Below are positions 19,508 to 36,171 of a stretch of 38,134 nucleotides of DNA, one piece after another; position 1 is the first letter of the stretch, and the number at the start of each line of letters is the position of its first letter. A program made the translations under genes and the position numbers. The stretch covers positions 1 to 38,134 of the forward strand of contig JAJFLV010000161.1 in assembly GCA_021772535.1 (NCBI GenBank). Direction: 5' to 3'. The stretch is from Opitutales bacterium (GTDB taxonomy: Bacteria > Verrucomicrobiota > Verrucomicrobiia > Opitutales > UBA2987). The notes below the pieces were generated by a model, which saw only the letters and a list, made by a program, of their open reading frames with translations, searched no databases and was not told the DNA's origin.

Positions 19508-19722
19508 ATTCTGTTCCGGCCTATTTTGTATATCTGGTCTCAGTTAGTAGTTATTATCGATCACATTAGCATCATTACTTGAATTTATTCAACTCAAAAC
19601 TACTGAACCCTTACCGAATCCTGAAGACGCGATCGAATTTCGATTGATAGGGCTTCTCTCCCCGTAATAGTTTGCGCAATGGAACCACATTCCTACAAAT
19701 CATCTATTTGCTGACATTATCC

Positions 19723-21021
19723 ATGAGGGCAAATAATTTCTACAACTCATTCGACTGCGAAACTTACCTTGAAGCCCGTCCGGAGGATGAAATCCGGACA
19801 CCCTTTCAGGTGGATCGCGACCGAGTCACTTTCACGGAAGCATTTCGACGTCTTCAGTCGAAGACCCAGGTTTTCCAATCCGGCGAATACGATTTCTACC
19901 GAACGCGGCTGACCCACTCCATCGAGGTCGCCCGTATTGGCCGAGCAATTTGCGAATATCTGCGGGAAACGAGCGAATTTCTGAACGATGATTATTTTAT
20001 CGATTCGGAGTTGGCGGAGGCTTTGGGCTTGGCTCACGATATCGGCCACCCGCCCTTCGGTCACATCGGGGAACGCAAACTCAATGACCTGATGCGTCAT
20101 TTCGGCGGTTTTGAGGGCAACGCCCAGAGTCTTCGCATCGTCACCGAACTAATTTACGAGAGACCGGACAAGCCACGGGGAATGTCCCCTACCCGAGCCT
20201 TCATGGATGGTATTCTCAAATACAAAAAACTGCAGCGGGAACTTATCGTCAAAAATGAAGAAGGAGAATCTCTTTATCCGGAAAACCACTTTCTTTACGA
20301 TGACCAGGAAAAATGCCGGGAATTTGTATTCGGCGGATCGATCCCTCCAGAGAGCTTGCTGAACGGCGATGGCCTCAACAGGTTCAAAAGCATTGAATGC
20401 CAGATTGTGGATTGGGCGGACGATGCAGCCTATTCCCTGCACGATATTCTGGACGGCATAAAGGCCGGTTTCATCGGGATCGGGCAGCTTAAAAATTGGG
20501 CCGATGGGCAGGCACTGACCCGCCAGCAATCGGATTGTATGAAGGAGCTGTCGGAACTAATCCAAAGTAACAGTATCGAGGCTGTTTTTAGCAACAAAAT
20601 CGGCAATTTCATAAAAGCCTGCCAATTGCGCAAAACGGAAAATTTCATGACTTCAAGAACCAACCGCTATCGGTTCGAACTGAAGGTGGCCCCGGAGATA
20701 CGCGAAGAGTGTGAACTTTACAAAACGATTGCCTGCGATTTGATTTTTCAATCCCCGCAAATTCAGAAAATCGAGTTTCGGGGCGGATTTTTTCTGCAAC
20801 GTCTGTTCGATGCCTATCGCGATAACTACATCGATGACTCCAGCCGAAACCTGAAAATTTTACCACTCCTGGTTTCCCGATGGATCGACCTGGAGGAATC
20901 GAAAACAGGGAAAATGCGCCGTATCTGCGACTATTTGGCCGCCATGACCGACGGAAACGCCATGCGGGCCTACAAACGCCTGTTCGATCCCGATTTCGGC
21001 ACCATCATCGAATTGCCCTGA
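19723..21021 (+). CDS. dgt: Deoxyguanosinetriphosphate triphosphohydrolase-like HD protein (dGTPase)
   Basis: FQVDRDRVTFTEAFRRLQSKTQVFQ, RLTHSIEVARIGRAI, ALGLAHDIGHPPFGHIGERKLN, DWADDAAYSLHDILDGIKAG. Start 19723 inferred; ORF open from 19672. Confidence 0.93.
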   Translation: MRANNFYNSFDCETYLEARPEDEIRTPFQVDRDRVTFTEAFRRLQSKTQVFQSGEYDFYRTRLTHSIEVARIGRAICEYLRETSEFLNDDYFIDSELAEALGLAHDIGHPPFGHIGERKLNDLMRHFGGFEGNAQSLRIVTELIYERPDKPRGMSPTRAFMDGILKYKKLQRELIVKNEEGESLYPENHFLYDDQEKCREFVFGGSIPPESLLNGDGLNRFKSIECQIVDWADDAAYSLHDILDGIKAGFIGIGQLKNWADGQALTRQQSDCMKELSELIQSNSIEAVFSNKIGNFIKACQLRKTENFMTSRTNRYRFELKVAPEIREECELYKTIACDLIFQSPQIQKIEFRGGFFLQRLFDAYRDNYIDDSSRNLKILPLLVSRWIDLEESKTGKMRRICDYLAAMTDGNAMRAYKRLFDPDFGTIIELP

Positions 21022-23595: not shown

Positions 23596-26500
23596 ATGGA
23601 GGCTTTGACCCATTATATGGGGTTGTTTGAAAGAATAATGGTTATTTGGGAAAATATGAATTCCGGGAAACCGATCTTCGGCCTGGCTATAAGTATTATT
23701 CTTTTATTGGCCCCTGTTTTATCGGCTCAGGGAGCAAAGGTTCCCAAAAATTCCGACAGCGTGTTGCTGACGGTGGAAAACAAAGTGCAGGTGGCCATTG
23801 GCAAAGGTCCCTGGCTGACCGGAAAGGCTGGACAGCCGCTTAATTTCGGGAACCGCGTACGAACGGGGGAATACAGCCGGGCAACAGTCAAGCTTTCCAA
23901 CGGCAGCATCCTGCGGATCGATGAATTAACCACAATCCGCTTGAAGCCTCCCGTCGGTCCGCAAAAAAAACCGGAGGCGGAATTGGAAAAGGGGGAGCTT
24001 TATTTTTTCGGCAGATCGAAGGAGGATGAGCTGCAATTCGTCACCCCCACGGCCAATGGAGCGATCAGGGGCACCGAATTTTCCCTCAACGTGGCGGAAA
24101 ATGGAACCACTGTGCTTACCCTGATCGATGGCGTTGTGCGCCTCTTCAATCCTTTGGGCGCGATCGACCTGCAAAGCGGAGAACAGGGAACGGCCGCTCC
24201 CGGCGCCCCACCCCGTAAAACCGCCGTTATTGATGCCATCAACATCATTCAGTGGTGCCTCTATTATCCGGGTATAATCGATCCGGAAGAACTGAATTGG
24301 AGCGCGGTCGAAAAAAATGCCCACGCATCGTCGATTGAAGCTTACGAAAGAGGAAATCTACTGGAAGCCCTCAGTCTATTTGTTGTGCCCAAAGACCGTA
24401 CCCTTAACTCGGCTGAGAATATCTATTTCGCGGGTTTACTGCTGGCTACCGGGCAGGTTGAGGATTCGGCCAAGCTGTTATCTTCTTTTAGATCTGGGCA
24501 ACCATTGGCGTTGGCCTTGACTGAAACAGTGGCAGCCGTGAAAGGACAGGCAATAGATGCTTCCCGGGCTCCTCAAGGGCCTTCCCAATTACTCGCCCGC
24601 TCGTATTATTTGCAATCCCGCAGTGACCTCGAGGGGGCTTTGCAAATGGCCCGCAGGGCGGTGGAAATTTCCCCGCAGTTCGGTTTCGGCTGGGCGCGGG
24701 TGGCGGAACTGGAGTTTGGATTCGGCAGAAGCCGCGCGGTCAGAAGCGCCCTCGAAAAGGCCCGTCAATTCTCACCCAACAACCCCCAGATGGCAGCCCT
24801 GGAGGGATTTATTTTAGCCGCTGAGAACAAGTTGAAAGAGGCGTCTGAAAAATTTGAGGAAGCCATCGCCCTGGACGGCGCTCTGGGGAATGCATGGCTG
24901 GGTCTTGGGCTAACCAACATAGCGCTCAACAATGTGGCAGAAGGCCGGCAGCATTTGCAAAACGCCGCTGCCCTGGAACCCAACCGCTCCTTATTGCGCA
25001 GTTATCTGGGCAAGGGATTTTCAATCCAATCGAGCTTTGAACTGGCGGAAAATGAACTTCGACTGGCACGGATAATCGATCCCGCCGATCCCACTCCGGA
25101 TCTTTATGGGGCTCTTCTCAACCGGGCTCAAAACCGCTTCAACGAAGCCGTTCATGAACTGGAGCGGTCCCTCGAACTGAACGACAACCGCCGGCTCTAC
25201 CGGTCCCGGTTCCTGCTCGACCAGGACCGGGCGGTGCGCGGGGCCAACCTGGCGGAAATCTTGCAACGGGCCGGTTTGAAAGAACTGGCCGTAAGCGAGG
25301 CGGGAAACGCGGTGACCTCGGACTATGGCAATTTTTCTGCCCACCGCTTCTTGTCCAATGCCTATAACGAGTTGCGGGATCCATCGCGCATCAATCTGCG
25401 GTTCGAGGTAGCCTGGGCGAACGAACTTTTTCTGGCCAATATCCTCTCGCCAGTCGGGGCGGGCAACCTTTCCCCCGCCATCACCCAGCAGGAATACTCC
25501 CGATTGTTCACCCGGAGACGGCCTGAATTGAGCCTAAGCGGCTCTTATAGAAGCGATGGTCGACAGGAGTACCTGCTTTCAAGTTCAATCCCTTTAGGCA
25601 AAACGGCGCTCTACCTGGACGCCGAGCAAACCGAGTTCGACGAATTCTTTTTCAACGACGACCTGAAGCGCACCGTGGTTTATGGAAGCCTAAAGCACCA
25701 GATCAATGACCGGGATTCGCTTTACGCTCTTTTGATTTACAAAGACTCGGAAAACGGGGATGTCTTTTTACGGTACCAGGCCGATACTTCGATTGAGGAA
25801 AGCCCGTTCGGACGCGACCCGGATTTTCGCTTTCGCGAACGCCAGGAGCCTCTGGCCTTTCTCGCTTTTCACCGGGAGTGGTCGCCGGGAGTCCACACCA
25901 TCCTGATGGGCGCACGACTGGATAATGAGCAAAGTCTTTCCGATAAAAACAGGGCGACGCTCTTTTTTCGCTCCATCGACGGCGTACCCTCTCAGCAAGC
26001 CACTCCCGCGCTGGATTGGACTTTCGAATCGGATCTGGTCATTTACTCGGGAGAAATTCAGCAAATTTACACCTTGGGAAAATCCAGTTTCATCGTTGGT
26101 GGCAGGATTCAAGAAGGCGATGTTGAAAATACTTCAAGGTTAGGAACGCCAAGCCCACTATTCTCCGATCTTCTTGAACAGCGGTTATCCGAGGATTTTT
26201 CCCGGCAAACGGTTTATGGTTATATCAATCATTCAGGGTTGATTCCAGGGCAAAATATTAACATCACCCTCGGGCTGACCTATGACCGAGTGGAGTTTCC
26301 TCCTTCCCTGGGAGAAGCGCCATTGATTGCCGGTCGTAAAACGAGCGACCAGGTAGGACCAAAGGCGGGCCTCTCCTGGAGCCCAATTCCCGGATGGACC
26401 TTGCGGGCCGCTTACAGTCGGACCCAAACCGGGTTTTCCCTCGATGAGCCGGTCCGACTGGAGCCCAACCAGGTATCGGGGTTCATCCAGGCGTTCCGCT

Positions 26501-27171
26501 CGGTTATTCCGGAGAACCTGACCGGCACGATCCCAGCGGCCAAAATCGAAACCGCCAATTTCTCAGTGGACGGAAAACTGGGGCCAGATACGTACTTCGG
26601 AATGAGTTTTTTCCGGAGCGATTCCGATGTGGAACGCAACCGAAATGCCTTCGAGGCCGCTTTTTTTCCGTTCCCACCGGTGAATGTGAATGGATTCTCC
26701 TTTGAAGAGAACTTTGACTATGAGGAGAACCAGATAACTCTGCGACTGGATCACTTGCTGGGCGACTCCTGGGCGACCGGCATTCGGTTCAAATGGAATA
26801 ACGCCAAGATTAACAAAACCACCCCTGGTTTGCCGGAAACAATTACGCCATTCCCCATTCTGCAAAACCTGGAAGCGGATTTGATCAATGTCTCCTGGAA
26901 CATCCGGTATCAGTCTCCGCAAGGGATTTTTGCCCGGGGGGAATATAGCTATTGGCGGCAAGACAACCGCAATTACCATCCGGAATTGCCCGGCGATACT
27001 TTTCCTATGGTCAATCTGGAGTTGGGTTTCCGGCTACAGAGCGACCGGGGCGAAATTTTTATCGGTTTGCTGAACGCGACCGATGAGGATTACCAGATCA
27101 ACCCGCTCAACAATTTCAATCAACTACCCCGCGAGCGCACCTTTATTGTTTCGGGCAGAATCAGCTTTTAA
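23596..27171 (+). CDS. FecR domain - TPR repeats - C-terminal outer-membrane beta-barrel fusion protein
   Basis: Signal-like FGLAISIILLLAPVLSAQG; FecR region (VRTGEYSRATVKLSNGSILRIDELTTIRLKPP...TANGAIRGTEFSLNVAENGTTVLTLIDGVVRL); TPR-like repeats; alternating beta-strands to a terminal Phe (ERTFIVSGRISF), TonB-receptor-like. Confidence 0.85.
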   Translation: MEALTHYMGLFERIMVIWENMNSGKPIFGLAISIILLLAPVLSAQGAKVPKNSDSVLLTVENKVQVAIGKGPWLTGKAGQPLNFGNRVRTGEYSRATVKLSNGSILRIDELTTIRLKPPVGPQKKPEAELEKGELYFFGRSKEDELQFVTPTANGAIRGTEFSLNVAENGTTVLTLIDGVVRLFNPLGAIDLQSGEQGTAAPGAPPRKTAVIDAINIIQWCLYYPGIIDPEELNWSAVEKNAHASSIEAYERGNLLEALSLFVVPKDRTLNSAENIYFAGLLLATGQVEDSAKLLSSFRSGQPLALALTETVAAVKGQAIDASRAPQGPSQLLARSYYLQSRSDLEGALQMARRAVEISPQFGFGWARVAELEFGFGRSRAVRSALEKARQFSPNNPQMAALEGFILAAENKLKEASEKFEEAIALDGALGNAWLGLGLTNIALNNVAEGRQHLQNAAALEPNRSLLRSYLGKGFSIQSSFELAENELRLARIIDPADPTPDLYGALLNRAQNRFNEAVHELERSLELNDNRRLYRSRFLLDQDRAVRGANLAEILQRAGLKELAVSEAGNAVTSDYGNFSAHRFLSNAYNELRDPSRINLRFEVAWANELFLANILSPVGAGNLSPAITQQEYSRLFTRRRPELSLSGSYRSDGRQEYLLSSSIPLGKTALYLDAEQTEFDEFFFNDDLKRTVVYGSLKHQINDRDSLYALLIYKDSENGDVFLRYQADTSIEESPFGRDPDFRFRERQEPLAFLAFHREWSPGVHTILMGARLDNEQSLSDKNRATLFFRSIDGVPSQQATPALDWTFESDLVIYSGEIQQIYTLGKSSFIVGGRIQEGDVENTSRLGTPSPLFSDLLEQRLSEDFSRQTVYGYINHSGLIPGQNINITLGLTYDRVEFPPSLGEAPLIAGRKTSDQVGPKAGLSWSPIPGWTLRAAYSRTQTGFSLDEPVRLEPNQVSGFIQAFRSVIPENLTGTIPAAKIETANFSVDGKLGPDTYFGMSFFRSDSDVERNRNAFEAAFFPFPPVNVNGFSFEENFDYEENQITLRLDHLLGDSWATGIRFKWNNAKINKTTPGLPETITPFPILQNLEADLINVSWNIRYQSPQGIFARGEYSYWRQDNRNYHPELPGDTFPMVNLELGFRLQSDRGEIFIGLLNATDEDYQINPLNNFNQLPRERTFIVSGRISF

Positions 27172-27214
27172 TTTAATATTGTATCGAAAAATTTTGAAAA
27201 TACGATTGGTGAAA

Positions 27215-30200
27215 ATGGGCAACAAATCCCTTTGGAAGTCGTGGGCGTCGATTATGGGCATTTTTGGATACCTGCTCGGCGGTCTAACATCTTTAGTTGC
27301 GCTCAACCCTGGGGACGTGGCGCTAACCCGCGTGACTCCTGACAGTGTCATATTGCTGGCCTTGGCCGATATTCCGGCGGGCGAACGAATTATTTTTACG
27401 GACCGGCGGTGGACCTCGCGCGGGTTTGAGCCAGACAATGGACAAGAAGGAGAAGGATTTTATGTGTGGACCGCTCCCGCAAATGGAGACCGGGTGGAGG
27501 CTGGCGCCCAGGTGCGCATCAACTTCCCGTCAGGGACGATTTTTCTGGATTGGCAGGACTACCTGTTTTTATTCCAGATAACACAAAAAAATCCCCAATT
27601 TCTCTATTCTATTTTTACAGACCGGAACTGGAATCTTTGGGATAACCCGGCAAGGGGCCTAACCAATGATATTACCTCAATATCCATCGGAATTATTGCC
27701 GACGCCCCGACTGATACGAATGGCCAACCGCGCATCAATCATGAGATAAAATCCGACATTCGAGAAACCTTCAAGGGAGAGCTGGACCAACTGGGCCTGT
27801 TGCGAAAACTGGCCGAAATTCAATCGTGGACATGGGTGGAAAACAATCCGAATCCAATTGATGACGGTGATTTTGCCAACATTCCCAGCTCCGGGTTGAT
27901 CGAATTTTCCTCCCCTTTTCATTTAGTGCGGGAGGATGCAACCTCCTTCAGTGTGATTTTACGCCGACTCTACGGAAGCAAGGAGAATGTATCAGTCAGG
28001 CTCAGCACGGTGACCCGCATTTCCGATTTCGCCCGTTTCCGGCCAAGAGCGACAGGGGTTTTCGATGACCTGACAGGGGTGGCTTATGGCAATGGTATCT
28101 TTACGGTAGTGGGGTCCGGCAGTGAAACCCTCACTTCAACCAATGGGATTACATGGAATCAACCGCACCCAATACAGTTTGAGAATCTGCATGGCGTCGC
28201 TTTCGGAGCGGGTCAATTCATAGCAGTGGGAAAAGACGGACTGATTTTGACTTCTACTGATGGCGCCTCCTGGACGGAGCAAGCTTCCCCAACCGTTGAA
28301 AACCTCTACAGTGTGGAATTTTTGAACAATATATTTTTCGCGGTGGGGGAAAAGAATACCATCCTCACTTCCATTGATACTGTAACCTGGAACACTGCCA
28401 CCATCAGTAGTGAATCGGGCGCCCTTTACGGCATTAATTTTGGAAACAACTTATTCGTTGCGGTGGGAAAAGACGGCGCCCTTTTTTCCTCAGAGGATGG
28501 CGAGACCTGGCTGCCGACGGGGGTGGGTGTCACCGGTAAAACTCTGTGGGAAATCGTCTATACCAATACAGGCTTTGTGGCGGTGGGGGATGAAGGTCGC
28601 ATTGTTTTCTCAGGTGACGGCGCGACCTGGGCGCAAAAACGATCCGGCGAGCGACTTTCCCTTTACGCAGTTGCGGTGGTCGGCGCCAACAAGGTGGCTG
28701 TGGGCAAAGAAGGGCTCATTATTACAACGGACGACAGCGCGGCATCTCAAGCCTTGGAAACTCTTGATGACGACACCGATTTCCAGTCCACCCGAGAAGA
28801 GAGTCGGGCATCGTCCCTTTTCGATGTCGCTTTCGCTGCCGATACCGTCGTGGCAGTTGGTGAATACGGTAAAATAATATCGGGCGCCATCACGGGAGGA
28901 ACCCAACTTTCAGCGGCGGCAGAGACGGATTTCACATCTATCGTCAATGCAAGCGTGTTTTGGGCCGATGGTGACAGCGATCCCAAAGTCCAAACAATCA
29001 CTTTTGCTCGCGACAACGTTACTGCTGTTCGGAAGCGTTTTGATTTGCGTCTGATCTCCGCCTTGGGAGAACCCGATTTGGGAACCTCGACCACACATAT
29101 TTCAATATTTAACAGCGACCCTCCCTTCAATCGGATTGTGGACAATTACGGCCCTTTTCTAACCTTCAAGAACGTGGAGTTATCCTTGAATAATGGGGAT
29201 TCCACCCTTGCCCACCAATTAAGATTTCGTATTCAAAACACCTCCTCGGTGGACTCAAAAGCGCTCCTGGTCACATTCGACGGAAGCAACTTGCCCGACC
29301 TGGACCTGCCGATTGTTCCAAGCGGCAATGTCTCGGAAATAATACAGATCGACCTTCCGGAGGTGGTGCAGTCCATCAGTCTTTTTGAATTCCTAAGCAA
29401 CAACTCCGAACCTGTTTTTAAACACAGGCGTTTTATTAACAGTGTTTTCATTGTCGAAGATCGGTCTGGAAACGGAGTTAAAGCTGGAACCTTGGGCACG
29501 GGATTCGTGACCGACCTCGTAGCGACACCAATCGGGGTTCTGGGAAGTAAATCGTCTCAAAAAGAAAATGCCGGGGGTGTCGGTGTCATAAAACCCTTAT
29601 TCAGCGGGGGCACTCCTCCGCCTCCTCCGGGAGAAGGCGGTGGCGAAGGATTCGGACTGGTCCTGACGGAAATCGAATTAACCGGGAATTCTTCCATCGA
29701 AACCGGTAGCGGCGTCGATTTTACCGCCATTGGCACTTATCTCGACCCCTTCACCCAGGAAGAATTTGAGGAAGAATTGACGGACCCCCAGCCCGATTGG
29801 ATACTGAATCCTTTAAGTTATCCGTTAGATGCCAACGGATTATTAACCGCAAATGCCAACCCAACCCTGGTTTATCCGCAAACCGCCGCTCTATCGGCAT
29901 CTTCAATCGACGGCGCCCCGGTCGATGAGCTAGGGAACCCGATTCCTGTAATCACTGATTTGAATGTGGAAATCGATGAACCAGCGGGGAACCAGGATTA
30001 CCCGGCCTGGGTAACCACCAACGGGCTCTTAGCCGGGCCAAGCGGGGAAAAGGATGATTTCGATGGAGACGAGCGGGCCAATTTATTGGAATTTTCACTC
30101 GGGACAGACCCCACCGTTGATGATCCGCAAGGCCTGCCCTATAATATGGTCGATAAAGGGGGTGGCACTTATTCCATCCAATACACTCGCCCGAAGTCTC

Positions 30201-30367
30201 GCCGAGGCGTCATTTACAAACTGCAAAAATCGACCGACTTCCACTCCTGGAGCGATCTTGGCCAAACCCTTTTCTCACAAGACAGCACAACAGAGACGTG
30301 GGAATCGTCCGGCACAGAGGATTCACCGGCAAACTTCAGGCTGGTGATTGAGAGGTTCGATCAGTAA
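27215..30367 (+). CDS. Secreted multidomain protein: N-terminal GDVA-type domain, Calx-beta-like domain with inserted 7-repeat beta-propeller, verrucomicrobial-type C-terminal module
   Basis: Signal peptide MGNKSLWKSWASIMGIFGYLLGGLTSLVA; seven repeats such as LHGVAFGAGQFIAVGKDGLILTSTDGASWTEQ; DDFDGDERANLLEFSLGTDPTVDDP near the C-terminus. Start 27215 chosen from signal peptide; ORF open from 27083. Confidence 0.8.
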   Translation: MGNKSLWKSWASIMGIFGYLLGGLTSLVALNPGDVALTRVTPDSVILLALADIPAGERIIFTDRRWTSRGFEPDNGQEGEGFYVWTAPANGDRVEAGAQVRINFPSGTIFLDWQDYLFLFQITQKNPQFLYSIFTDRNWNLWDNPARGLTNDITSISIGIIADAPTDTNGQPRINHEIKSDIRETFKGELDQLGLLRKLAEIQSWTWVENNPNPIDDGDFANIPSSGLIEFSSPFHLVREDATSFSVILRRLYGSKENVSVRLSTVTRISDFARFRPRATGVFDDLTGVAYGNGIFTVVGSGSETLTSTNGITWNQPHPIQFENLHGVAFGAGQFIAVGKDGLILTSTDGASWTEQASPTVENLYSVEFLNNIFFAVGEKNTILTSIDTVTWNTATISSESGALYGINFGNNLFVAVGKDGALFSSEDGETWLPTGVGVTGKTLWEIVYTNTGFVAVGDEGRIVFSGDGATWAQKRSGERLSLYAVAVVGANKVAVGKEGLIITTDDSAASQALETLDDDTDFQSTREESRASSLFDVAFAADTVVAVGEYGKIISGAITGGTQLSAAAETDFTSIVNASVFWADGDSDPKVQTITFARDNVTAVRKRFDLRLISALGEPDLGTSTTHISIFNSDPPFNRIVDNYGPFLTFKNVELSLNNGDSTLAHQLRFRIQNTSSVDSKALLVTFDGSNLPDLDLPIVPSGNVSEIIQIDLPEVVQSISLFEFLSNNSEPVFKHRRFINSVFIVEDRSGNGVKAGTLGTGFVTDLVATPIGVLGSKSSQKENAGGVGVIKPLFSGGTPPPPPGEGGGEGFGLVLTEIELTGNSSIETGSGVDFTAIGTYLDPFTQEEFEEELTDPQPDWILNPLSYPLDANGLLTANANPTLVYPQTAALSASSIDGAPVDELGNPIPVITDLNVEIDEPAGNQDYPAWVTTNGLLAGPSGEKDDFDGDERANLLEFSLGTDPTVDDPQGLPYNMVDKGGGTYSIQYTRPKSRRGVIYKLQKSTDFHSWSDLGQTLFSQDSTTETWESSGTEDSPANFRLVIERFDQ

Positions 30368-30388
30368 TTTTATGAGAGTCGTTAATTT

Positions 30389-32491
30389 TTGCCGACCTCA
30401 TTCGAGATGCGAAGACCGCTGGTAAACACATTATTGCTGAATCTGGGAGGAATATTCCTGGTTTGCGGATTGGGAACGGTCCTTGTTTCGTATAAAAATG
30501 GAGAAGGACCCAGAAGGCTCAGTTTCGACCTCTTATTCCATAGTCCGCTGCACCTTCACAGAGTCGATGAAACGGCCAAAGACAACGTCATCGTTTATCT
30601 GGATGACCTTTCCCACAACGCCCTCGACCAACCCTACGATAGCATTTGGGACCGGCGCCTGCATGCCTACCTGCTTGATAGATTGACCAGCGATGGCGCC
30701 AAAATGGTCTTTTATGACATCGTCTTCGACCAGAGCAGCTCTAATAAGAAAAGCGATAACGTTTTTGCGGAGGCCATTGCCAATAACGGTTCAGTTTTTT
30801 TAGGGGCCGGCCTGGAGCGACAAGAGAGCGCAGATATGGCATATGACGAAATCATCAACGCTCCACACGGTCTATTTCGTAAAAAGGCCAAAGCCTGGGG
30901 AATGATCCACAGTCCACTCGATCCCGACCAAGGAATTCGTGTATTGTCCACCGGCACCGAGGAATATTCATCGGCCACCTGGATATCCGCCCTTTTCCTG
31001 GCTCCTGGAATAGAAAATAAACTGGGGCCTCGAATGAAGGAACGCTGGCTGAACTATCTTGGGCCGCCGGATACAATACCGTCGGTCAGTTTTTTTCGTG
31101 CCTTGCAAGAGGATGCCCTGCCATACGGATTTTTCAAAGATAAGATCGTATTTGTGGGGGCCAAGGGATCAGTAGGTTTTACTGGAACCACGAAAGATAC
31201 TTTTCGCTCTCCCTACAGGGAATCGGGCAAGCATCCCTTTTACAATGGTGTCGAACTCCACGTCATGGCTCTGGATAACCTGCTTGCAGGCAACTGGTAC
31301 ACCCGGATGAACCGAAAGACGGAACTCATTCTCGTATTGGCAATCGGGGCAATCCTTGTTCTGAGTATGATTTCCCTGCGCCCTCGTTATTCCCTGCTTA
31401 TGTCTCTGGGAGCCGTAGTTATTCTGCTGCTGGTTCCACCTTATATTTGCCTGAGCACCGGATATTTTTATAGTTGGGTCGTTCCGCCATTCTTTCTTGT
31501 GCCGACGGCCTTTCTCTGGTCGGCAGGCTGCCATTTTTTCCGCGAAGTGCGCAGACGGAACCGATTGCGACGGACGTTTTCCGCCTATTTGTCCCCCGTC
31601 ATGGTAAAACGGCTGGCCGATGCCGATGAGGAGCCTCAATTGGGCGGACATGAGGAAAACATCACCGCTTTTTTCAGCGATATCGAAAGTTTCTCCAGTT
31701 TTTCGGAATCGCTCACTCCTACACAGCTGACGGAAGTCATGAATACTTATTTAACGGAGATGACGAATATCCTCCGGGAGCAAGGAGGGGTGCTGGACAA
31801 ATATATCGGGGACGCCATCGTCGGCATGTTTGGAGCCCTGGTCGATATGGAGGATCATGCCAGCAAGGCCTGCTTTGCTGCTGCCCGGATGCAGGAGAGG
31901 CTGGCTGAATTACGCCAGGCGTGGGCAACTAAAGAAGGAATCCAGTTTACGGTGCTGGGAAAGGTGAGGGCCCGCATCGGCCTCAATAGCGGACCGGCTA
32001 CAGTGGGCAACTTCGGCTCCGAGTTCCGTTTCAACTACACCATGATGGGCGACATGGTGAATCTGGCCGCACGCTGCGAAAGCGGAGCCAAGACCTACGG
32101 CGTCTATACTATGGCGGCGGAAGAAACCAAGTCGGCGGCGGAAAAGTATTCCTCGGAGTTTCTTTTCCGCTTTCTGGACAAAGTTATCGTGAAGGGCCGC
32201 AGACAGCCGGTTAATCTCTACGAGCTTGTCGGATTCAGGGAAAAACAGCCGGAATCGGTACATGAATGCCTCCTGATTTATAACCAGGCCTTGGAAAAAT
32301 ACCTTGGCCAGGATTGGGAAGGAGCAATCGCGCTTTTGGATCAATCGGTTTTACTGGAACCCAACAGACCGGCTGGAGGCGAAGAGGAACGCGTTAATCC
32401 GTCCATAATTCTGCGGAACCGCTGCCTGCAATTGGAGAAAGACCCGCCCGCCAAAGACTGGGACGGCGTTTATATCATGTCTTCCAAATAG
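30389..32491 (+). CDS. CHASE2-domain class III adenylate/guanylate cyclase
   Basis: N-terminal CHASE2 (DNVIVYLDDLSHNALDQPYDSIWDRRLHAYLLDRLTSDGAKMVFYDIVFDQ), three TM helices, cyclase domain ITAFFSDIESFSSFSE, LDKYIGDAIVGMFG, NYTMMGDMVNLAARCESG. A start at 30407 (MRRPLVN) is also possible. Confidence 0.94.
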   Translation: MPTSFEMRRPLVNTLLLNLGGIFLVCGLGTVLVSYKNGEGPRRLSFDLLFHSPLHLHRVDETAKDNVIVYLDDLSHNALDQPYDSIWDRRLHAYLLDRLTSDGAKMVFYDIVFDQSSSNKKSDNVFAEAIANNGSVFLGAGLERQESADMAYDEIINAPHGLFRKKAKAWGMIHSPLDPDQGIRVLSTGTEEYSSATWISALFLAPGIENKLGPRMKERWLNYLGPPDTIPSVSFFRALQEDALPYGFFKDKIVFVGAKGSVGFTGTTKDTFRSPYRESGKHPFYNGVELHVMALDNLLAGNWYTRMNRKTELILVLAIGAILVLSMISLRPRYSLLMSLGAVVILLLVPPYICLSTGYFYSWVVPPFFLVPTAFLWSAGCHFFREVRRRNRLRRTFSAYLSPVMVKRLADADEEPQLGGHEENITAFFSDIESFSSFSESLTPTQLTEVMNTYLTEMTNILREQGGVLDKYIGDAIVGMFGALVDMEDHASKACFAAARMQERLAELRQAWATKEGIQFTVLGKVRARIGLNSGPATVGNFGSEFRFNYTMMGDMVNLAARCESGAKTYGVYTMAAEETKSAAEKYSSEFLFRFLDKVIVKGRRQPVNLYELVGFREKQPESVHECLLIYNQALEKYLGQDWEGAIALLDQSVLLEPNRPAGGEEERVNPSIILRNRCLQLEKDPPAKDWDGVYIMSSK

Positions 32492-33027: not shown

Positions 33028-33837
33028 ATGTACGAAAGTTATTTTGGCTTCCGGGAGATGCCATTCAACATCACTCCCGATCCCAAGTTTCTTTTCCTCA
33101 GCCCCACCCATTTGGATGCGCTTCAATATTTGCGCTACGGGGTTAAGGAAAGAAAGGGATTCATCGTGTTGACTGGCGAAGTCGGCTGCGGCAAAACCAC
33201 CCTGTGCCGAAAATTGCTCAATGAACTGGATGGGGAAAAGTACGAAACAGCTCTTATTCTGAATCCACGCCTTTCGGAAACCCAGTTGCTCAAGGCCATC
33301 CTGACGGAAATGGGCGAAGAGACCAAGGCCCGTAGCCGCAATGATCTTCTCAACCAGCTCAACCACGCTCTGTTGGACCGCATTCATGCCGGCAAGGATA
33401 TCGTATTGATCATCGATGAATCGCAAAATTTGGCCTTCGAAGCGCTCGAGCATATTCGGCTTCTTTCCAATCTGGAAACCGATAAGCAAAAATTGCTGCA
33501 GATTATTCTCATCGGCCAGCCCGAATTGAAGGAAAAGCTGCTGGAAAAACGGTTGCGACAGTTGAAGCAGCGCATCCTTGTCCAGTACGACCTCACTCCT
33601 CTCTCGCAGGATCAAGTGATTCATTACATTCAACACCGGCTCTCCATGGCAGGCGGCATGGGGCGGCCAAGTTTCACCCCCTACGCGTATCAGAAAATCT
33701 TTAAATCCAGCCAGGGAATTCCCAGAATGATAAATAATTTGTGTGACAAGTCCCTCCTCTCGGCATTTACTAGGTCGTCAGACAATGTCAACTATTGGGA
33801 TGTGAGGCGGGCAATAAAGGATCTAAACCTTAAATGA
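33028..33837 (+). CDS. ExeA/GspA-like AAA ATPase
   Basis: MYESYFGFREMPFNITPDPKFLFLSPTHLDALQYLRYGVKERKGFIVLTGEVGCGKTTLCRKLL; Walker B DIVLIIDESQNL. Confidence 0.92.
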   Translation: MYESYFGFREMPFNITPDPKFLFLSPTHLDALQYLRYGVKERKGFIVLTGEVGCGKTTLCRKLLNELDGEKYETALILNPRLSETQLLKAILTEMGEETKARSRNDLLNQLNHALLDRIHAGKDIVLIIDESQNLAFEALEHIRLLSNLETDKQKLLQIILIGQPELKEKLLEKRLRQLKQRILVQYDLTPLSQDQVIHYIQHRLSMAGGMGRPSFTPYAYQKIFKSSQGIPRMINNLCDKSLLSAFTRSSDNVNYWDVRRAIKDLNLK

Positions 33838-34775
33838 GCCTCATCAACGACGCTCTAAAAAAAGCCCAAAAGGCGCATTCGACGGATAATGCGCCACCGC
33901 CGCCTGTTGGACAAAGTCATTCCGTTTCCCATGGCATGGGCAAAGGACAATTGATGAAGATCTTTCTGGCGGCCGTCGTCGTTCTCGGTATTTTCGGAAC
34001 CTCGGTGGCTTTTTTAATTCTGGGTCTGATGGGCGATAAAGAGGTTGAACCTGCGGAAACTCAGGCTCTTGCCTCCTCTGCGGCACCGGTTCTTTCAAAT
34101 AAGGAGGCCTCGGCCAGCCAGAAAGTCGTGCCCGTTTCCAAACCGGAACCCGCCATTACCTCGCCCAAAGCCAATATGGTACCGGTTCCCATTGAACCAG
34201 TGGCAGCGGCGAAGCCACGACCGGCAGAAATTTCCCAACCCGCGGCCAAACCCACTCCGGCTCCGGCTCCGAAAGAGGCGCCTCCTTCATCCGCCCCGGT
34301 CACGGGTTTCGGTCTGGTCCGACAAACTGTTGTCCGGGGCAATGAAAATGCCGGCTTGGTGGATGATGTATTGGACAGCGAGCCCCAAAAAACTGTAACT
34401 CCAGTTCCCGCGAGTCCCACCCCCGCGATTGCCCAAAATCGGCCTCAAGCGGAGGCGACTCCAGCGACTTCCACGCCACAAGCTAAATCGGCGCCTGCTC
34501 AACAGAAGGAAATAGTCAAAGCAACCCCCATGCCGACAGCCAGCAAACAAACGCCCGCCGCTGCAAAGGACCCGGTGATCGCGGACTACGTCGATAAACT
34601 TGTAATCCAGGGAATTCGTCTCTCGGGCGTCAATAGCAAGGTCCTCATGAACAATAAGGTATTTCGCCTCAACACTTACGTAAACCGCGACTTGAAATTG
34701 ACAGTAATTTCAATTAGCAAAGAACGAATCATTTTTGCAGACAATGTCGGAATCCGATACACCAAATACTACTGA
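33834..34775 (+). CDS. GspB/ExeB-like single-TM protein with C-terminal T2SSB-like domain
   Basis: MSLINDALKKAQK N-terminus, single TM, Pro/Ala-rich spacer, C-terminal DYVDKLVIQGIRLSGVNSKVLMNNKVFRLNTYVNRDLKLTVISISKERIIFADNVGIRYTKYY; ATGA overlap with the ExeA-like gene. Confidence 0.7.
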   Translation: MSLINDALKKAQKAHSTDNAPPPPVGQSHSVSHGMGKGQLMKIFLAAVVVLGIFGTSVAFLILGLMGDKEVEPAETQALASSAAPVLSNKEASASQKVVPVSKPEPAITSPKANMVPVPIEPVAAAKPRPAEISQPAAKPTPAPAPKEAPPSSAPVTGFGLVRQTVVRGNENAGLVDDVLDSEPQKTVTPVPASPTPAIAQNRPQAEATPATSTPQAKSAPAQQKEIVKATPMPTASKQTPAAAKDPVIADYVDKLVIQGIRLSGVNSKVLMNNKVFRLNTYVNRDLKLTVISISKERIIFADNVGIRYTKYY

Positions 34776-36171
34776 TTCTTCCAAGGGTGAGGAATCACAA
34801 AGTCCCGAAAGCCCTCCAAAGCTGCGTCTTTCCCTGAGGAAAACGTCTTCTCCCGACCCTGGTCAAAGCGCAGAGGAAAAACCTCCGGCAGCGCCTCCGC
34901 CCCAAGAGGAGGCCGCAAAGCCCGAGGAAACGAAGGCCGAAGCGGAATTACCCGGTGGCGGTGACAGCGCGGGCGGCAAGCTGAAACTTTCCCTGGGACC
35001 AATAAAGGATGTCACTCCGCAACCAGAGGCCGAAAAAACGGATTTGGATTCCGATGCCGATCCATTTGACATCAAACCAAACCCAGTCGAGGGCGGCACT
35101 GCTCTGAAATTAGGCATCAAGCCCAAGGCGCCTGAACCGGAAGCGAAACCGGCAACGCCTCCTCCCGTCAAAAAGAAAAAATCCGGCATTACCATCCGGG
35201 GGCTGACAGGAAGGCCTTTTGGCCCTCAAGAAACCAAGGAGGAAGAAAAACCGGCCCCGGAGGCCACGATTTCTGAAGAACCCGGGGTTGAAAGCGATGC
35301 GGCTCCTCCTATCGAAGCCGGAGAAACACTCGCTCCTTCCGAAACCCAAGGTCTACCTGAGGAGACAAAAACGGCTCCACCTCCAGCAGCAAAGAAAGCT
35401 CCTCCGCCCCCGACAAAGAAAAAACCTGTCCCGGCCCCTCCGCCTCCGAAATCGAAGGTAAAACTGGCCAAACCCGCACCCGCTCCATCAAAAGAAAAGA
35501 AAGATAAAGTTTCGGCTCCTCCGCCCGGAAAGAAGAAACCGGCGGACCTCAAGAAAACTGAGAAAAAGCCTAAACCGGAATCCGCTAAAGCATCCCCCAA
35601 AAAAATTGCCCTTGTTCTACTGCTTGTCATGGGCATCTTTGTGGCTGCGGGATATTTTGCCATATCCGCCTTTTTTGGTTCTTCCGCGGAGGAATCATCC
35701 GAACCCATCGCTTCAACGCCCTCGGCTTCCAGCCAATCTCCATCGGCAAAGCCGGAAACTCCGGCCCCGGCCCCGGCAATCGTCAAAGATAGTGCACCCA
35801 CCCCACAACCGACAGTTACGCCAACCCCTGCTCCAGCTGTCCCCATACCTACACCTTCTGTTCCCCAACTAAAGATTGAGCGGGTGGTTGTTACTTCAGC
35901 GGAGCCGGAATCGGAACCCGAATCAGAAGAGGTTTTTCAGGCAGCCGAACCCGAGCAGGACGAAAATATAATCGCTTTCGTCGACAGCCTGGTCATCAAG
36001 GGTTCGATCGGAGATGGCGTCTCGGCCAGGATCCTTGTCGGCAATTACAAATATTCTGTCAATGATGTTGTCGATGAAAGCCTGGGGGTTGTCTTTTCAG
36101 GAATTAACAAATCCACCCGCGTGATAATTTTCACCGACGCTGAGGGTGCGCGTTATTACAAACCGTTTTGA
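34744..36171 (+). CDS. Pro/Lys/Glu-rich single-TM protein, C-terminal domain paralogous to the preceding gene
   Basis: MSESDTPNTTDSS start at 34744; long low-complexity region; TM (KIALVLLLVMGIFVAAGYFAISAFF); C-terminal IIAFVDSLVIKGSIGDGVSARILVGNYKYSVNDVVDESLGVVFSGINKSTRVIIFTDAEGARYYKPF. Confidence 0.7.
   Translation: MSESDTPNTTDSSKGEESQSPESPPKLRLSLRKTSSPDPGQSAEEKPPAAPPPQEEAAKPEETKAEAELPGGGDSAGGKLKLSLGPIKDVTPQPEAEKTDLDSDADPFDIKPNPVEGGTALKLGIKPKAPEPEAKPATPPPVKKKKSGITIRGLTGRPFGPQETKEEEKPAPEATISEEPGVESDAAPPIEAGETLAPSETQGLPEETKTAPPPAAKKAPPPPTKKKPVPAPPPPKSKVKLAKPAPAPSKEKKDKVSAPPPGKKKPADLKKTEKKPKPESAKASPKKIALVLLLVMGIFVAAGYFAISAFFGSSAEESSEPIASTPSASSQSPSAKPETPAPAPAIVKDSAPTPQPTVTPTPAPAVPIPTPSVPQLKIERVVVTSAEPESEPESEEVFQAAEPEQDENIIAFVDSLVIKGSIGDGVSARILVGNYKYSVNDVVDESLGVVFSGINKSTRVIIFTDAEGARYYKPF

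Follow-up and report, generated by a model that had tools for sequence, protein, structure and literature searches.

The transfer of a signal from the surface of a Gram-negative bacterium to an enzyme of the inner membrane is understood for few systems. In Sinorhizobium meliloti, the outer-membrane receptor NsrA, whose barrel occupies amino acids (aa) 600-1200, is required for sensing the ribosomal protein uL2 as a signal and acts through the CHASE2 cyclase CyaK, which produces cyclic AMP (cAMP); the NsrA-CyaK pair raises cAMP on the protein signal (PMC7529298, PMC13001267). Here we describe a three-gene locus in a window of 38,134 nucleotides (nt) from an Opitutales bacterium of the Verrucomicrobiota (GCA_021772535.1, contig JAJFLV010000161.1, which is contig 70 in an assembly of 272 contigs), where a gene for a FecR-TPR-outer-membrane barrel protein (g1) is followed on the same strand by genes for a secreted propeller protein (g2) and a CHASE2 cyclase (g3). 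Its products probably form a trans-envelope receptor akin to NsrA-CyaK, with g2 as the likely surface partner, and the locus sets the Sinorhizobium pair within a large Verrucomicrobiota family.

Other associations between CHASE2 proteins and envelope or exported proteins have been described. In Campylobacterota, a CHASE2 cyclase clusters with a FecR-domain outer-membrane protein, a TPR protein and a phosphodiesterase (PMC9239204); cyclase, FecR and TPR functions are grouped there as in the Opitutales locus, but the TPR is on a separate protein, the phosphodiesterase is absent from the g1-g2-g3 cluster and no secreted propeller was reported (PMC9239204). The Burkholderia BiofilmReg operon also has a FecR protein adjoining a CHASE2 sensor, in that case a LysM-FecR protein and a CHASE2 histidine kinase (PMC5192318); there, however, FecR is carried by a peptidoglycan-binding LysM protein devoid of TPR or barrel, and the output is a two-component system. 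In magnetotactic bacteria, the gene of an exported protein likewise precedes that of a CHASE2 adenylate cyclase, although this protein, MtxA, which has a signal peptide, is small and has no barrel (PMC4439547).

The Sinorhizobium pair is the closest of kin. A tblastn search of plasmids with g1 matched S. meliloti pSymB, where a FecR-TPR open reading frame (ORF) of 1224 aa ends in a stop overlapping the beginning of the ORF for a CHASE2 cyclase of 649 aa; from this layout, we take the pSymB locus to be nsrA-cyaK. Aligned end to end by hhalign, the g1 family and the Sinorhizobium family match with E=1.9e-50 over 1031 columns, at about 18% identity. Both receptors have the order FecR, TPR and outer-membrane barrel (~550-600 aa) within ~1200 aa in total, and both are accompanied on the same strand by an adjacent CHASE2 class III cyclase gene, directly downstream in the case of NsrA, whereas here g2 stands between. 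At its core, the locus represents a distant branch, in Verrucomicrobiota, of the receptor kind known from NsrA-CyaK, and a pair of this type is not in itself novel; an earlier sequence-only reading of this DNA had counted the FecR-to-barrel fusion as new, a claim that fails since NsrA has the same layout. The new elements are the Verrucomicrobiota branch and its breadth as a family, the exchange of the output domain for histidine kinase, Ser/Thr kinase or TIR domains, and a co-encoded, linked secreted protein with a putative partner role. No description of the Verrucomicrobiota g1-CHASE2 family was found in the literature searched, and no secreted gene is named there for the NsrA-CyaK pair (PMC7529298, PMC13001267).

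The linkage between g1 and CHASE2 recurs well beyond this genome. A g1 relative is encoded in 310 GTDB genome stretches, the best 80 of which belong mostly to named Verrucomicrobiota, together with one Pontiellaceae (Kiritimatiellota) bin. From 121 distinct g1 loci, 15 that end within 1.5 kb downstream without a CHASE2 gene were set aside, and at 78 of the 106 testable loci a CHASE2 gene is present on the same strand within ~9 kb. It lies directly downstream of g1 at 55 loci (median of 185 nt between the g1 stop and the CHASE2 domain), a count that leaves out L102 and L213, where the CHASE2 gene is directly upstream. Class genomes contain on average only one to two CHASE2 genes, and for this reason adjacency to g1 by chance is estimated by us at about 1%. 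The flanks are unrelated where the pair occurs in other families (L068, L070). The conserved linkage that the sequence-only reading called for is found for the g1-CHASE2 pair, and the whole trio in this order recurs in two congeners.

The intracellular output of the CHASE2 partner varies: it is a cyclase in 47 cases and a Ser/Thr kinase in 12, whereas hybrid histidine kinases account for 8 and TIR domains for 2, with 9 cut or unclassified. On the g1 tree, output type requires 5 changes, against 20.8 in shuffles, and none of 200 shuffles was as low. Moreover, g1 and CHASE2 distances correlate with r=0.77, a value to which the shared ancestry of the genomes contributes, compared with at most 0.13 in 1000 permutations. 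Judged from these comparisons, g1 and CHASE2 are co-inherited and output swaps are rare. As the receptor is constant and the output exchanged, CHASE2 can be argued to be the docking partner of FecR-TPR-barrel receptors. The two CHASE2-TIR proteins adjoining a g1 receptor (L120:3230-4774 and L213) may be connected with signalling in defence or through NAD consumption, and a single protein at L102:11031-14171, directly upstream of a g1 homolog, combines Ser/Thr kinase, CHASE2 and cyclase.

These data also bear on whether g3 senses alone through CHASE2, g1 being a co-regulated TonB-type nutrient receptor. Such an arrangement would fit the g1 barrel fold, which matches siderophore and copper receptors, and the presence of CHASE2 in 92 of 145 class genomes (about two thirds), a larger share than that of g1 homologs (39 of 390 by profile search). 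The absence of a plug domain from g1, the distance correlation, the clustering of output types on the g1 tree and NsrA genetics all speak against it, and we regard it as very improbable.

The assignment of g1 as a receptor is also consistent with its predicted fold. Pfam matches FecR (2.6e-12, aa 87-182), TPR_2 (5e-8) and TonB_dep_Rec_b-barrel (1.4e-6), and the AlphaFold model, built with 38 sequences, has a predicted local distance difference test score (pLDDT) of 86 and a predicted template modelling score (pTM) of 0.84. In the model the TPRs, about 11 in number, extend right up to the barrel, in which we count 22 long strands among the DSSP elements between aa 644 and 1190. The best PDB folds by Foldseek are TonB-dependent receptors, for example FptA, FecA and OprC; g1 has the 22-strand barrel of this class and lacks its N-terminal plug, no plug family being matched in Pfam at E<=1. 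Ferric citrate signalling by FecA-FecR-FecI resembles the locus in relaying a surface signal through a TonB-type barrel and a FecR domain. Fec surface signalling employs an inner-membrane FecR anti-sigma factor and the sigma factor FecI, whereas FecR of g1 forms one polypeptide with the barrel at the outer membrane, the plug is missing and the receiver is CHASE2. Given this fusion, and with no sigma factor among the neighbour genes scanned around g1, membership of the Fec type was rejected.

The TPRs and C-terminal barrel of g1, without a plug family match, and the large secreted genes that adjoin g1 in several relatives would also suit a protein working mainly as a channel for export or uptake, secreting g2 or a polymer (compare PgaA and BcsC), with the CHASE2 cyclase monitoring channel load. 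TPR-barrel exporters have a 16-strand barrel, however, unlike the 22-stranded, TonB-receptor-like barrel of g1; neither a glycosyltransferase nor an export partner was observed repeatedly next to g1, and NsrA is published as a receptor, so that a channel role appears improbable. Membership of the TPR-barrel polysaccharide exporters was likewise rejected, on the strand number and because no polysaccharide synthase lies directly beside g1 among the window genes scanned.

As for g3, Pfam finds CHASE2 (1.1e-27) and Guanylate_cyc (2.9e-19), and CHASE2 is placed between transmembrane segments when hydropathy is considered as well. The adenylyl-cyclase residues are complete in the alignment, namely the metal-binding D431 and D475, the adenine pair K471 and T551, and the catalytic N558 and R562, each of them common to 39-47 of 48 aligned cyclases. 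The partners of g3 in congeners are 65-66% identical, and a search of viral contigs with g3 found nothing. The domain content that the sequence-only reading gave to g1 and g3 agrees with Pfam and, for g1, with AlphaFold and Foldseek, and its cyclic-nucleotide output fits the residues of g3, although some relatives have a kinase or TIR output instead. A second CHASE2 cyclase of the same genome (L073:6979-8316, on contig 54), truncated by the contig end, is of a different type of roughly 750-830 aa that is found throughout the order.

In the proposed mechanism, g1 would sit in the outer membrane by its plugless 22-strand barrel, with the FecR and TPR parts reaching into the periplasm. A surface ligand, probably a protein, would alter the state of the barrel, TPR and FecR parts. 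The FecR and TPR parts would then touch CHASE2 of g3 in the periplasm and thereby switch the cytoplasmic cyclase. The cAMP that g3 is predicted to make could be read by cyclic nucleotide monophosphate (cNMP)-binding effectors; 13 matches to cNMP-binding domains are present in the genome. The relay from barrel, FecR and TPR to CHASE2 had been suggested by the sequence-only reading and holds in outline, as the pair is conserved across Verrucomicrobiota and the homologous NsrA-CyaK is published as a receptor with a cAMP-raising cyclase. The exported g2 would most likely be the cognate surface partner of g1, acting as ligand, co-receptor or ligand-presenting protein.

The distribution of g2 is narrow. 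A full-length g2 is encoded by 4 of 292 genomes of the order and by 2 of 394 at phylum level, with g1 present in every case, and in all four genomes that have it g2 adjoins a CHASE2 gene. The order g1-g2-g3 is repeated in two congeners (L066, L067); same-genus relatives include Opitutales bacterium OFTM35 (L142). The fourth genome, G056, belongs to another family. Its g2 is 28% identical and lies at the end of a contig that breaks off early in a CHASE2 gene, the remainder of which opens the contig that bears g1. Within this CHASE2 gene, at L071:12410-13069 and L072:1-400, the contig ends hold the two ends of a transposon, marked by inverted bases (17 of 18) and a duplicated 6-bp target, TGGTTT, and joining the flanks restores the reading frame. 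Since the contig ends share one transposon and the flanks rejoin in frame, the gene order is taken to be g2-g3-g1. A central part of this gene is missing as well; the gene is thus broken in that strain or assembly, being either a decaying copy or a collapsed assembly.

With g2 in just four order genomes, and with no intervening gene in most g1-CHASE2 pairs, it could be that g1 and g3 signal as a pair, g2 being an unrelated surface protein whose gene came to lie between theirs and was kept by synteny in one genus. On the other hand, in G056 a diverged g2 again adjoins CHASE2, in permuted order, and other secreted propeller/PKD proteins fill the same slot between the genes in L109, L112 and L207, which makes an unrelated g2 rather unlikely. 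These FG-GAP/PKD proteins of ~1800 aa stand directly after g1 and before CHASE2 (domains checked in L109 and L112; L207 assigned by its shared C-terminus), and elsewhere Kelch, NHL and DUF5122 propellers or Ig-domain proteins lie upstream or downstream of the pair. FG-GAP_2, DUF5122 and NHL each have 3-4 members beside the pair and none in the control among the 25 families listed, so that the control set lends modest support to secreted genes as neighbours of the pair. In an Opitutales genome (L074:751-14813), two giant paralogous secreted proteins of 2415 and 2193 aa are encoded; in the first, which immediately precedes a g1 homolog, Pfam recognizes Calx-beta, FG-GAP and trypsin-like domains.

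Several observations weigh against a receptor of the NsrA-CyaK kind with g2 as partner. A same-strand CHASE2 gene was not in range at 28 of the 106 g1 loci, some with flanks that are too short, and the NsrA barrel is too diverged for a confident hmmsearch match, only hhalign spanning it. The trio in two congeners is weak evidence alone, because the flanks are syntenic, and the absence of g2 from most g1-CHASE2 loci implies that the pair works without it. Additionally, Ig_3 occurs in 10 of 45 proteins adjacent to the pair and in 4 of 45 controls, an enrichment that is suggestive only. A receptor of this kind with g2 as surface partner is still preferred, and the secreted middle gene, which the sequence-only reading had named as a new part, is retained among the new points, although confined to four Opitutales genomes. 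More tentatively, the FecR-TPR-barrel class and CHASE2 sensors might form a modular switch with evolutionarily swapped outputs, to which several lineages would have added a secreted propeller as a built-in ligand, giving a self- or kin-sensing circuit. By supplying candidate cognate secreted ligands, the locus opens a direct experimental route to what CHASE2 senses.

The g2 protein has a hydropathy-predicted signal peptide (aa 12-31) without a lipobox Cys, and in Pfam it matches only the propeller family DUF6242, below threshold. Its structure model is poor overall (pLDDT 44) and usable for the propeller alone, where pLDDT is mostly 57-92 across aa 281-500 and lower near 505-532; Foldseek matches of the propeller are Ycf48 and 7/8-bladed propellers. 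The sequence-only reading had labelled g2 a secreted Calx-beta/propeller protein. Secretion and propeller stand, whereas Pfam gave no Calx-beta above threshold on intact g2, spliced halves or single halves. When the propeller flanks are spliced in silico, they match bona fide Calx-beta by hhalign (probability 95.6%, E=1.3e-8; best E in 20 column shuffles, 0.036), and for this reason the propeller seems inserted into a split Calx-beta-like domain, a plausible label at the level of profile comparison. A phage search with g2 gave partial matches to the propeller region alone, in baseplate and hypothetical proteins, and these were uninformative.

The intergenic gaps of 43 nt (g1-g2) and 21 nt (g2-g3) and the co-directional order, as given by the sequence-only reading, agree exactly with the ORF calls, and the layout appears operon-like; promoter and terminator scans of the locus gave scores not clearly beyond those of shuffles. 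The mechanical ORF of g2 opens at 27083, within g1, and g3 has an alternative ATG start at 30407. Coordinates are collected in Table 1.

Table 1. Positions in the window of the three genes and of their domains
Feature	Position	Strand	Basis
g1, NsrA-like FecR-TPR-outer-membrane barrel receptor, 1191 aa	23596..27171	+	ORF, Pfam, AlphaFold, Foldseek
g1 hydrophobic signal helix, aa 26-43	23671..23724	+	AlphaFold helix; hydropathy aa 23-50
g1 FecR domain, aa ~60-200	23773..24195	+	Pfam FecR 87-182; all-beta 55-210 in model
g1 TPR solenoid, aa 237-617	24304..25446	+	Pfam TPRs; helical hairpins 237-617 in model
g1 plugless 22-strand barrel, aa 644-1190	25525..27165	+	DSSP, Pfam, Foldseek
g2, secreted propeller protein, 1050 aa from the ATG at 27215 (taken as start)	27215..30367	+	ORF, hydropathy
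g2 Calx-beta-like domain (plausible), first half, aa 216-281	27860..28057	+	alignment with G001/G002/G056 homologs; hhalign
g2 seven-bladed BNR/Ycf48-like propeller, aa 282-560	28058..28894	+	Pfam sub-threshold, model, Foldseek
g2 Calx-beta-like domain (plausible), second half, aa 561-660	28895..29194	+	homolog alignment; hhalign
g3, CHASE2 adenylyl cyclase (predicted), 700 aa, TTG start	30389..32491	+	ORF, Pfam
g3 CHASE2 sensor, predicted periplasmic, aa 43-322	30515..31354	+	Pfam CHASE2 1.1e-27
g3 transmembrane hairpin, aa 309-362	31313..31474	+	hydropathy
g3 class III cyclase domain, aa 422-612	31652..32224	+	Pfam 2.9e-19; PDB CyaB 3r5g; residue columns

Directly 3' of the trio, window positions 33028-36171 encode an ATPase closely resembling the XrtA/PEP-CTERM-associated one (TIGR03015, 302 bits, below the cutoff of 324.5), which adjoins the trio in both congeners too, and two proteins without a Pfam match. 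On the other side, positions 19672-21021 encode a dGTP triphosphohydrolase like the anti-phage dGTPase family (354.5 bits against a cutoff of 400).

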